This document shows positions 1,409-32,407 of a stretch of 32,711 nt of DNA, one piece after another. The DNA comes from Prevotellaceae bacterium (GTDB lineage: Bacteria > Bacteroidota > Bacteroidia > Bacteroidales > UBA932). Each line of letters starts with the position of its first letter. Position 1 is the first letter of the stretch. Where the stretch lies: assembly GCA_031290835.1 (NCBI GenBank), contig JAISLN010000271.1, positions 1 to 32,711 of the forward strand. Direction: 5' to 3'. The translations under genes and the position numbers were made by a program. The notes below the pieces were generated by a model, which saw only the letters and a program-made list of their open reading frames with translations, did not search any database and was not told the DNA's origin.

Positions 1409-1750
1409 GTGTATTTGACTATGTCGATTTTCAATTCAAATTGTTGTGAGCATTAATCCGGTAGGGATTAACTTAAAAAAACATTCCGTACTTCTCTACT
1501 TTACTTTGCATCCCATAGGGATGCGTCTCTCGGTAGAAACGACAAAACCTTTCCTCTCTTTGCATCCCGTAGGGATGCGTCTCTCGGTAGTGGTTGTTTG
1601 TATCCCGGATGCAGAGGTTGAACGAAACGGCAACATTTCTACCCAGAGATGCATACCTACGGAATGCCGCTTTAGATGATGCACATACATTTCTACCCAG
1701 AGATAATCCATATCTAAGATAATCCATGAGAGCGACAATTTGAAATGCAC
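1409..1750. repeat. Dispersed repeat block A: GTGYATTTGRCTAYGTCGATTTTCAATTCAAATTG head plus several TTTGCATCCCGTAGGGATGCGTCTCTCGGTAGAAA palindromic units, closed by an inverted head remnant
   Basis: Head at 1409-1443; direct units at 1505-1539 and 1559-1590; inverted units near 1638-1671 and 1690-1709; inverted AGCGACAATTTGAAATGCAC at 1731-1750. Confidence 0.8.
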
Positions 1751-3469: not shown

Positions 3470-3596
3470 GTGCATTTGGCTACGCCGATTTTCAATTCAA
3501 ATTGTCGCTCTCTGAATAATCCCGTAGGGATTATCTCTCGGTAGAAGTACATCCTGCCGCCGCTCTTTGCATCCCGTAGGGTAGGGTGTTCAGACC
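3470..3596. repeat. Dispersed repeat block B, interrupted at its second palindrome by a TAGGGTGTTCAGACC element end
   Basis: Head GTGCATTTGGCTACGCCGATTTTCAATTCAAATTG at 3470-3504; AATCCCGTAGGGATTATCTCTCGGTAGAA follows; TTTGCATCCCGTAGGG then TAGGGTGTTCAGACC at 3582-3596. Confidence 0.75.
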
Positions 3597-3631
3597 TGCG
3601 TAATTTTTTCTGCTGATTTATGCCGAAAAAA
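3582..3631 (+). mobile_element. Solo left end of the MITE family also found at 31976
   Basis: TAGGGTGTTCAGACCTGCGTAATTTTTTCTGCTGATTTATGCCGAAA closely matches TAGGGTGTGCAAACCTGCGTAATTTTTTCCGCTGATTTGTGCCGAAA at 31976; no clear right end found here. Confidence 0.6.
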
Positions 3632-20651: not shown

Positions 20652-20753
20652 GTGCATTTGGCTACGTCGATTTTCAATTCAAACTGCTGCGAGCGTTAAT
20701 CCTAAATGCTGCTTCCTCTTTGCATCCCGGTAGGGATGTATCTCTCGGTAGAG
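20652..20753 (+). repeat. Dispersed repeat block D
   Basis: GTGCATTTGGCTACGTCGATTTTCAATTCAAACTG head, then TTTGCATCCCGGTAGGGATGTATCTCTCGGTAGAGA. Confidence 0.8.
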
Positions 20754-29550: not shown

Positions 29551-29844
29551 ATGAAAACAGCGAGTGAATATTGTCTTCTGTTGCGCGACTATAAGCACAA
29601 ACATGCGGCGGAATATGGCATTGAGCGCATGGGGATTTTTGGCTCGGTAGCCCGCGGCAACCAAACCGAGGATAGCGATGTGGACATATACATAGAAGCG
29701 CCCCAAATGAGCCTGCTTGGATTGGCGAATCTTCATATTGCACTGGAGAACTACCTGAAAACGCCCGTAGATATTACCTGCAAGCACGACAACATGAACT
29801 CCTATTTTAAGCAACGGATAGAGGAGGAGCTGATATATGTATGA
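29551..29844 (+). CDS. MNT-domain nucleotidyltransferase (MntA-like antitoxin)
   Basis: 97 aa; GSVARGNQTEDSDVDIYIE matches GSx10DxD. Confidence 0.92.
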   Translation: MKTASEYCLLLRDYKHKHAAEYGIERMGIFGSVARGNQTEDSDVDIYIEAPQMSLLGLANLHIALENYLKTPVDITCKHDNMNSYFKQRIEEELIYV

Positions 29845-30226
29845 CAAGCTACTGCTGTTAAATTCATTGCAATATATGGCGACGTCACTGCAAAAAATCA
29901 TTGAGCGGACAGCGGACGTTACTTCCGTTGATGATTTTGTGGGTTCACCTTCCGGAATGGATTTGTTGGATATTGTTTGCATGAGACTTTTTGCCGTTGG
30001 TGAAACCGTGAAAGCGATTGACAAACACACCAATAAATTGTTTTTGTCGCGTTACCCTTCTATTAATTGGCAGGAAATAATGAGAATGCGGGATGTTATT
30101 GCCCATCATTATTTTGAAATTGACGCCAATAGAGTATTCAACACTGTTCGGAATGATATTTTGCTACTATTTCAAGTCATTGAACAAATGCAGGAAGATT
30201 TAAAGAATCATGATTTAAATGTTTGA
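29837..30226 (+). CDS. HEPN-domain (DUF86, HepT-like) toxin
   Basis: 129 aa; RDVIAHHYFEID matches Rx4HxY; overlaps the MNT gene by 8 nt. Confidence 0.9.
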   Translation: MYDKLLLLNSLQYMATSLQKIIERTADVTSVDDFVGSPSGMDLLDIVCMRLFAVGETVKAIDKHTNKLFLSRYPSINWQEIMRMRDVIAHHYFEIDANRVFNTVRNDILLLFQVIEQMQEDLKNHDLNV

Positions 30227-30257: not shown

Positions 30258-30395
30258 GTGCATTTGGCTACGTCAATTTTCAATTCAAAATTGTCGCGAA
30301 CATGGATAATCCCGCAGGGACGACACGCTATTAACCGTAGGGATGCATCTTTTGGTAGAAACGTCGTTACACGGCGTTTTTTGCATCCCTACGGG
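30258..30395 (+). repeat. Dispersed repeat block E, target site of the IS/MITE insertions
   Basis: Head GTGCATTTGGCTACGTCAATTTTCAATTCAAAATTG; TTAACCGTAGGGATGCATCTTTTGGTAGAAACG; then TTTTGCATCCCTACGGG, whose other half ATGCAAAG lies at 32300. Confidence 0.8.
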
Positions 30396-30426
30396 TAGGG
30401 TGTTCAGACCCATCAAAAACCGCCCG

Positions 30427-31683
30427 CTAAGCAGAGAGCAATTCTCTTCGCTTAACTGTCCTATTTTCAGATAAATGGTCGTCTCTCCAAGTAGCTAAAT
30501 CTTGCAGAGAAACGCGCTCCAAGTACAGCTTAAAGCACCCCTTATCTATCCCCGCTTTTTGCTTCATCCGCGTCCGAAGCGGAAGTAACAAAATTTGCTT
30601 CGTAACGCCGTTCATGGCGTTGGGCGATTGGCGCGCCTTGTAGCTCCCAAACAGCGATTCAATAATGTCCGACGAGATGTGACACCTTGCCTGCTCATCG
30701 GGTAGCTTGCTGCACTCCTTCGCAAGGTACTCCTCGATGAGCTTGCCGACAGCCGCTACTCGCCGCTTGGAGGAGGTTAGCAAGGGGCGTATTTTTGACA
30801 GGCACTCCTTAGCGCTTGACGAGGAAAGCCCTTCATTTTTCAGCTGCTGTAGCACGGGGTTGACCACCTGAAATACCCCGCTTAATTCTTTTATAATCGC
30901 TTGCTTGTCCTTTATAAAGCGGAAAACCTTCCGCTCATCCTTGCTCAAGCGGGAAAATGATTGCAGCAGCGCCATCGCCCATTTTACCGTGCCGGACAGG
31001 TTCATGAACCGGGCAATCGTCCGCTGCTTCGGGGGAAGTAGGTACGCCGGCGGACGCATTACCTCCTTGAACTTTACGCCGCTAATCTCATCCATAAGGG
31101 ATTGAAAAACTTCCGCTTTTTCATAAATCTTCTGCATAAAAAGGCCAAAGGTATGGCCCACATCCCGAAGATGGGTATAGCCCTTGTCGCGAACGGCTTT
31201 ACTTATCGTGCTCGCGTTGTCGCTGATGACGTAGGCGGGAGGGGCCTCCATTTTTTCTTCCACCTGCGCAAATACTTCGCCTATGCTCGCGCTGTTCCAG
31301 CTGGTATTTACGCTCATATTCAATATTTTGACTTCTCCCTCCGTCAAGCTTGTATCGGTGGTTTTCGCCGCCGGAATGCCCACGGTAAGCAGCAACTTTT
31401 CACTCCCAACCATCATGCTCTCGTCAACTATGGCGGCGTAGTCCTCCGTAAAATCGTCGGCGCCCGTATCGTCGTACACGCAGTAGCCGCTCTTTTGCAC
31501 CCAGCTCGCTATGCTGTTGTACGAGGGGAGCTCCTCCGCCTGCCATTGGAAGGCAGTATTTAGCACCTCCAGTATTTTTACGACCATGCGCAAGCTGCAA
31601 CCGCATGTGGCGTAGAGCGATACGCTTAACGAAACAATGAAATCAGTGTACTTATGTCGTTCAATGTACTGCTCGGCAGGCAT
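30427..31683 (-). CDS. Putative DDE-type transposase (catalytic part)
   Basis: 418 aa; AAIVDESMMVGS, YVISDNASTISKAV...LRDVGHTFGLF, SSDIIESLFGSYKARQS are candidate D/D/E motifs; enclosed by inverted repeats. Confidence 0.78.
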   Translation of the reverse strand: MPAEQYIERHKYTDFIVSLSVSLYATCGCSLRMVVKILEVLNTAFQWQAEELPSYNSIASWVQKSGYCVYDDTGADDFTEDYAAIVDESMMVGSEKLLLTVGIPAAKTTDTSLTEGEVKILNMSVNTSWNSASIGEVFAQVEEKMEAPPAYVISDNASTISKAVRDKGYTHLRDVGHTFGLFMQKIYEKAEVFQSLMDEISGVKFKEVMRPPAYLLPPKQRTIARFMNLSGTVKWAMALLQSFSRLSKDERKVFRFIKDKQAIIKELSGVFQVVNPVLQQLKNEGLSSSSAKECLSKIRPLLTSSKRRVAAVGKLIEEYLAKECSKLPDEQARCHISSDIIESLFGSYKARQSPNAMNGVTKQILLLPLRTRMKQKAGIDKGCFKLYLERVSLQDLATWRDDHLSENRTVKRRELLSA

Positions 31684-31919
31684 TCCGATTTTCCGTTTTT
31701 TTTTACGCTCTCCGCCGCTTTTAGCGCTTGCGTCAGGCGCTTCACCTTTACTTTATACCGATCGCGGCTTTGGGACATGTCCCGATTTTTTTGGCGCTCT
31801 ACATGATTTTTTTGGCGCTCTACATGAAAGGCTTGCTTATAGGCTGCCAGCTGCGCACGCAATTTTTCTTCCTGTTTAGTTCTCATAATATCTTTATAGC
31901 TAAATATGTTAAGCCGCAA
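31626..31919 (-). CDS. N-terminal coiled-coil ORF of the same IS, probably joined to the transposase by -1 frameshifting
   Basis: RTKQEEKLRAQLAAYKQAFHVERQKNHVERQKNRDMSQSRDRYKVKVKRLTQALKAAES then an A9 run; the downstream ORF overlaps in the -1 frame. Confidence 0.65.
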   Translation of the reverse strand: MRLNIFSYKDIMRTKQEEKLRAQLAAYKQAFHVERQKNHVERQKNRDMSQSRDRYKVKVKRLTQALKAAESVKKNGKSECLPSSTLNDISTLISLFR

Positions 31920-31975
31920 AGATAGCCTTTTTTAGAAGAACTTTATCAAGAGGTCTGAACACCCTACCCTACGGG

Positions 31976-32290
31976 TAGGGTGTGCAAACCTGCGTAATTT
32001 TTTCCGCTGATTTGTGCCGAAATTAATTGCCTCAACAACCTCATTTTTACCTAATTTCTCAAACAAAACGGCCTCAGTAGCCATGGAATACGCCACCTGC
32101 AACCCAACCTCATTAACCTCATTGGGCTATGCTGCGGGCAAACAATGAGGTAATGAGGTGTTGTTCGCATCATATACTTTTGCTACTGAGGTGGTTTTGT
32201 TTGAGAAATTAGGTAAAAATGAGGTTGTTCGCTGCCTCCTTTTCCAGCTCAATTTTCGGCAGAAAAATTTCGTACCTTCTGAACACCCTA
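31976..32290. mobile_element. MITE-like non-coding element (about 315 bp)
   Basis: Starts TAGGGTGTGCAAACC and ends TCTGAACACCCTA, IS-like ends; flanked by CCCTACGGG at 31967-31975 and 32291-32299; no credible ORF; large internal inverted repeat. Confidence 0.78.
32034..32229. repeat. 48-bp inverted repeat (46/48 matching arms) inside the MITE
   Basis: Arms 32034-32081 (AACAACCTCATTTTTACCTAATTTCTCAAACAAAACGGCCTCAGTAGC) and 32182-32229; a nested smaller inverted repeat (CCTCATTAACCTCATTG / CAATGAGGTAATGAGG) between them. Confidence 0.9.
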
Positions 32291-32407
32291 CCCTACGGGA
32301 TGCAAAGAAAATGCGGAAGTTAGCCGACATTTTTCTTAACTTGACGACGCAGGGTCAACGACCTGCGGCCATGAAGATACGGCCCCTTTCAGGGCAGCCG
32401 CGCGTAG

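Follow-up and report, generated by a model that had tools for sequence, protein, structure and literature searches.

A DDE-transposase insertion sequence (IS) and the family of miniature elements (MITEs) that it most likely serves very probably insert at a symmetric 9-bp word, with a target duplication of up to 9 bp. Both kinds of element stand side by side in the window, the whole stretch of 32,711 nucleotides analysed here, which is contig 271 of a draft Prevotellaceae genome (2.69 Mb in 315 contigs) from what we take to be a gut-type bacterium. Termini, flanks and arms were analysed on stretches fetched around genome matches, from which distinct junctions were then catalogued, and genome counts of termini and words were each set against a control, for the termini the reversed pattern.

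The tandem insertion and its transposase

Between positions 30387 and 32299, three copies of CCCTACGGG (30387–30395, 31967–31975 and 32291–32299) enclose, in this order, a 1571-bp IS (30396–31966) and a 315-bp non-coding hairpin MITE (31976–32290), with the middle copy common to both; this arrangement, set out in a preliminary description of the window, is confirmed in the sequence. The IS is delimited by its inverted ends, its transposase genes, which lie on the reverse strand, and relatives with the same boundaries. The terminal inverted repeats that bound the transposase gene are 15 bp long and perfect (TAGGGTGTTCAGACC), at 30396–30410 on the forward strand (the 3′ side of the transposase) and at 31952–31966 on the reverse strand (its 5′ side); in L095 the terminal arms measure 25 nt and match at 96%. 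The IS occurs as a single copy in the genome assembly. Tandem occupation is not confined to the window, as two MITEs share one CCCGTAGGG at positions 1055–1515 of a second locus, L006. Adjoining the IS, at 29551–30226, are two overlapping small genes, one MNT-type nucleotidyltransferase-like and one HEPN-like, which look by eye only like a toxin-antitoxin pair.

Joining the flanks across the IS and MITE, through the arms TTTGCAT (30380–30386) and ATGCAAA (32300–32306) read from the sequence, gives TTTGCATCCCTACGGGATGCAAAG, a reconstructed target in which the palindrome is restored as had been proposed. The further proposal that this 24-mer is a repeat present elsewhere in the window is ruled out: TTTGCAT-CCCTACGGG-ATGCAAA is absent elsewhere in the genome, where TTTGCATCCCNNNGGGATGCAAA has 0 matches even with 1 mismatch, and just a 17-bp core recurs. 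Two empty copies of this core, GCATCCCATAGGGATGC (1508–1524) and GCATCCCGTAGGGATGC (1562–1578), lie at the sites 1505 and 1559, which share with the restored site this core and TTT on one side, the right side continuing as GTCTCTCGGTAG; at 20719 one arm is broken and the loop measures 4 nt.

The transposase is predicted from two reverse-strand frames. The first, orfA (31626–31886, ATG at 31886), encodes a lysine- and glutamate-rich, predicted coiled-coil protein and has the same layout in relatives. The second, orfB (30427–31683), carries residues D90 and D158 and the motif D177xxH180 (numbering of the frame at window positions 30430–31692) in common with eleven relatives of 25–60% identity, and E345 is kept in every one of the eleven whose sequence covers that part. 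D177xxH180 follows D158 by 19 residues, and the 187 residues from D158 to E345 are helical in the structural model, which comprises an RNase H core and an insertion that is helical throughout (mean pLDDT 74). The top matches among solved folds were Hermes, the P element transposase and ISCth4 (E 4e-7 to 6e-6). By motif and modelled fold, orfB is predicted to be a DDE enzyme that carries a D(2)H motif, Mutator/hAT-like in kind.

The two frames meet at a run of 8–10 A in seven of nine IS, with a −1 shift needed in six, and are in one frame in L126 and L127. In the window the run is A9 (AAGAAGAAG, 31696–31704, reverse strand), a probable site of −1 frameshifting or slippage. This layout recurs from Prevotellaceae through to Spirosoma, which favours programmed slippage over decay. 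A perfect 21-bp tandem duplication within orfA (31784–31825), repeating HVERQKN, is lacking in the congener copy L072.

Against the Pfam transposase families, the window protein gave no match at E up to 10 and its relatives gave none at E up to 1, and membership of IS256 or ISLre2 was rejected on this result. The NCBIfam models for ISH6 (NF041731; 19.6 bits and E 3e-4 for the window protein, E 2.4e-5 for the best relative, cut-off 240 bits) and IS6 (NF033587; 19.1 bits over the N-terminal part only, cut-off 125 bits) scored far below their cut-offs, and membership of either was rejected as well. A sequence search of the PDB returned no credible relative and matched no solved transposase. Among the curated families compared (Pfam and NCBIfam), the lineage appears to be uncatalogued.

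The target word and the MITE family

The nine bases immediately outside the element end, over 90 distinct termini, were C (86%), C (92%), C (80%), three variable positions, G (87%), G (96%) and G (96%), with no strong consensus beyond them. The flanking arms are highly diverse (GCAT, AAT, GAAG, CCTA, GCTGC and other repeat types), so what stays constant is the symmetric word of 9 bp rather than one repeat; this word is the target, and it lies in repeat settings of many kinds, some of them lacking a larger palindrome. The preliminary description had placed a 9-bp duplication at the centre of a palindrome and suggested a test of whether all copies sit in GCATCCC-TAC/GTA-GGGATGC. A duplication of up to 9 bp, with the symmetric CCCNNNGGG word at its centre, agrees with our data; the larger palindrome is not constant, and that all copies sit in it is not supported, with arms as diverse as these and not complementary beyond chance. 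Copies outside the palindrome, named there as grounds for refutation, were found in part: the Spirosoma copy lies in CCTATAGGG, off any palindrome axis. Sites of the same kind as in the window also serve relatives with 41–61% identical transposases, as distant as Parabacteroides and Spirosoma.

Unoccupied sites are plentiful. Genome-wide, CCCNNNGGG occurs 761 times versus 472 in the control, and the 17-bp core GCATCCC-N3-GGGATGC has 56 unoccupied copies versus 0; in the fetched sequence, 40 of 113 empty CCCNNNGGG words have stems of at least 6 bp. The sequence TCCCGTAGGGA is abundant in congeners (48 matches in G008 and 77 in G010; controls 1 and 0), and a search for it in Parabacteroides gave 0 matches. 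Another word, CCTGAAAGG, recurs at junctions (L126, 693–720 and 817; L128, 2149; L040, 1716; L114, 1501), and in L126 it adjoins a further CCCCTGAAAGGGG hairpin, a second type of common hairpin that serves as target.

The ends of the window MITE, TAGGGTGTGCAAACC and TAGGGTGTTCAGAAG, match those of the IS at 13 of 15 positions on each side, and many other copies match at 15 of 15, which bears out the earlier claim of shared termini. A genome-wide search for termini like TAGGGTGTTCAGACC (at most 2 mismatches) found 81 of IS/MITE type versus 1 in the reversed control, so the family extends far beyond chance. The genome holds about fifty gene-less miniature copies with ends as in the IS; the left MITE end appears in about 49 junctions and the right in 29. 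Some 20 copies align with the window MITE for about 300 bp, at 84–93% identity; in a second class, shorter at about 125 bp, the middle has been lost. Within the window MITE, an internal 57-bp left arm (32034–32090, forward strand) is 89% complementary to the right arm (32173–32229, reverse strand), and the single strand folds at −86 kcal/mol versus −33 for shuffles (z −12.4). A solo left end of another MITE copy lies in CTCTTTGCAT-CCCGTAGGG at 3582–3628 on the forward strand. Neither the palindromes nor the MITE matched Rfam, for which the sole match in the window is a tRNA. In four congeners (G004, G005, G009 and G010), MITE-type ends also lie at CC-N5-GG, with different arms; for the IS of Parabacteroides and Spirosoma, the search for MITE copies returned nothing but the ends of the IS themselves. 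The MITE is non-coding and shares both its ends and its target with the autonomous element, and because of this the family is probably moved in trans by the IS transposase; the earlier proposal to this effect thus has its premises observed, and the movement itself we infer from them.

In the mechanism that we propose, orfA and orfB would be fused by predicted −1 frameshifting at the A9 run, and the fusion transposase would bind TAGGGTGTtCAgAcC, the ends common to IS and MITE. Insertion would take place at the symmetric 9-bp word, of which CCCNNNGGG would be the best form and CC-N5-GG the minimum, and a staggered cut would duplicate up to 9 bp. Each insertion would leave the word, newly copied, on either side of the element; the site would thus persist, and another element could insert next to the first, as is seen in the window. 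Most copies would lie in hairpin centres because the genome is full of short repeated hairpins with CCC(GTA/TAC)GGG on the loop side.

Direct repeats and mismatched flanks

Exact 9-bp repeats flank four of the nine IS copies inspected, namely those of the window (CCCTACGGG), of the congener locus L073/L127 (CCCGTAGGG, the same word on the other strand), of Parabacteroides acidifaciens (CCCTACAGG) and of Spirosoma validum (CCTATAGGG), the last three with transposases 42–47% identical to the window copy. Judged by their sequence, the Parabacteroides and Spirosoma repeats are too unusual for a chance match. Both isolate genomes (2/2) have exact repeats; mismatched 9-mers flank four IS, those of the metagenome-assembled relatives L124, L125, L126 and L128, and mismatched IS occur in such assemblies (MAGs) only. 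As to length, a 9-bp repeat and one of 5 or 7 bp in which GG or G is owned by the element would fit equally, because the outermost CC is mirrored by the outermost GG and the three read alike. The inner G, which deviates in 4 of 90 junctions, varies slightly less than the outer C, which deviates in 13 of 90 (p 0.04).

The MITE copies give a different picture. Among the 31 two-ended elements of the genome, 6 have identical 9-mers (3.3 expected by random pairing, p 0.08) and 12 have 9-mers at most one base apart (6.7 expected, p 0.01); the two words differ in 25, often cleanly as GTA versus TAC. Complementarity of the arms across the element averages 1.31 of 4 positions versus 1.26 for random pairs (p 0.42). 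With differing words and non-complementary arms, most copies connect two half-repeats of different origin, both of which end in the target word, and the four IS of L124, L125, L126 and L128 do likewise. Few MITE copies are thus clean insertions into a single palindrome, and the arm and repeat statistics rule out that every copy was so inserted. The likeliest origin of the mismatched flanks would be later recombination between copies, because some fifty MITE copies sit among near-identical hairpin arrays.

The mismatches could also be assembly joins at near-identical MITE copies, with all real copies clean. The fragmentation of the draft genome and the restriction of mismatched IS to MAGs fit such an origin, which we consider possible but doubtful, since most MITE copies differ from the window copy by 6–16%, assemblers usually break at such repeats, and hybrid repeats of ISRm22 are known in a finished genome (PMC1525189). 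Another account supposes that the flanking words are no duplication at all, one core word being carried by the element and the other supplied by the target, in the manner of Tn916-like coupling sequences. A carried word would explain why both sides fit CC-N5-GG yet often differ, as in the 25 differing pairs and in four single IS copies. By motif and fold, however, the predicted enzyme is a DDE transposase, exact repeats flank the IS of both isolates and of two others, with unusual words in two cases, and the differing outer arms are left unexplained; we regard this account as very improbable. Equally far-fetched to us is its extension, in which the family would join hairpin centres without simple duplication, carry a core word from donor to target and, as copies shuttle, reshuffle the repeat arrays.

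The target itself could be read differently, if the transposase recognised a folded palindrome (cruciform or hairpin) and long complementary arms were part of the site. The reconstructed sites of the window and L073, with complementary stems of at least 7 bp, and the stems at empty CCCNNNGGG words are in keeping with this. The arms of occupied sites, however, pair no better than chance, exact repeats without matching long arms flank L020 (CCTTTTGGG), L046, L122 and L123, and Parabacteroides lacks any TCCCGTAGGGA; recognition of a fold is improbable, and we retain the symmetric 9-bp word as the target.

Distribution and relation to known systems

Of 198 relatives searched, 13 carry the transposase, as do 3 of 395 genomes sampled from the class and 2 of 398 sampled from the phylum; each count includes the genome of the window itself. 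The family is rare and lies mostly in the window's own bacterial family. Named IS relatives include MAGs of Prevotellaceae, Tannerellaceae and Bacteroidales; one of them, L127 (Prevotellaceae bacterium Gx485_bin89), has the same IS and flanks as the congener genome G010.

IS of several families are established as targeting REP sequences, and the behaviour is not new. ISRm22 of Sinorhizobium meliloti, an IS4-family element, has all of its copies in dispersed REP palindromes, at the palindromic axis, and hybrid repeats in three of nine copies, for which its authors blame recombination between copies or adjacent deletions (PMC1525189). It resembles the present family in its dispersed palindromes, short direct repeats and hybrid repeats put down to recombination, and differs in its 6-bp repeats, its IS4-family transposase with a Pfam match to Transposase_11 and the MITE partner, present here and unmentioned in the searched text of that paper (PMC1525189).

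Prokaryotic Mutator-like (p-MULT) transposases are reported to be marked by a D(2)H motif that follows the second D (PMC3942029), and they share with orfB the DDE residues, an alpha-helical insert and a C/D(2)H motif 11–19 residues after the second D (19 here). Their direct repeats measure 8–9 bp; here 9 bp fits, and so would 5 or 7 bp, as the word is symmetric. In ISMich2, two ORFs are likewise joined by a −1 frameshift. In contrast, orfB has no Pfam match, and the ISH6 model matched at E 2e-5 at best, in a relative, far below cut-off; their insert spans 99–138 residues, against 187 from the second D to E here. Their inverted repeats are 18–39 bp long with a conserved terminal C; those here are 15–25 bp long and end in TA or, with a duplication of 7 or 5 bp, in C or G. 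With a 9-bp repeat, the terminal base here is T rather than G. The ISH6 target is also AT-rich. The hAT (Hermes) and P-element transposases give the best fold matches, with an RNase H core and large helical insertion, yet are eukaryotic enzymes without a sequence match and with TM-scores below 0.5.

The present family adds an apparently uncatalogued Bacteroidota lineage to the few transposases that aim at dispersed palindromes. Its target rule (CC-N5-GG, with CCCNNNGGG as the best form) is clean and testable, and by it the element would regenerate its own target; the family also offers a natural system in which non-coding palindromic repeats may act as safe landing sites and as points of recombination.

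RAYT/REP systems likewise have dispersed extragenic palindromes, whereas the element here has a predicted DDE enzyme, inverted ends and direct repeats. Two Y1 (RAYT-type) transposase genes occur in the genome, one a near full-length family match and one partial (G000:C299:1898-2239 and C78:234-416; L118 and L119), and are possible makers of the dispersed palindromes. A literature search on CCCGTAGGG repeats returned nothing relevant. Short arrays of a repeat of about 53 bp (TTTGCATCCCGTAGGGATGCRTCTCTCGGTAGAAAYG plus variable filler) lie at G000:C15:1868-2079, C19:3962-4243, C203:15712-15893 and window positions 1508–1578. The congener G010 has a similar unit with the stem altered on both sides (CGTCCCGTAGGGACG...GGTAGAAA), as if selection or the copying process maintained the pairing of the stem.
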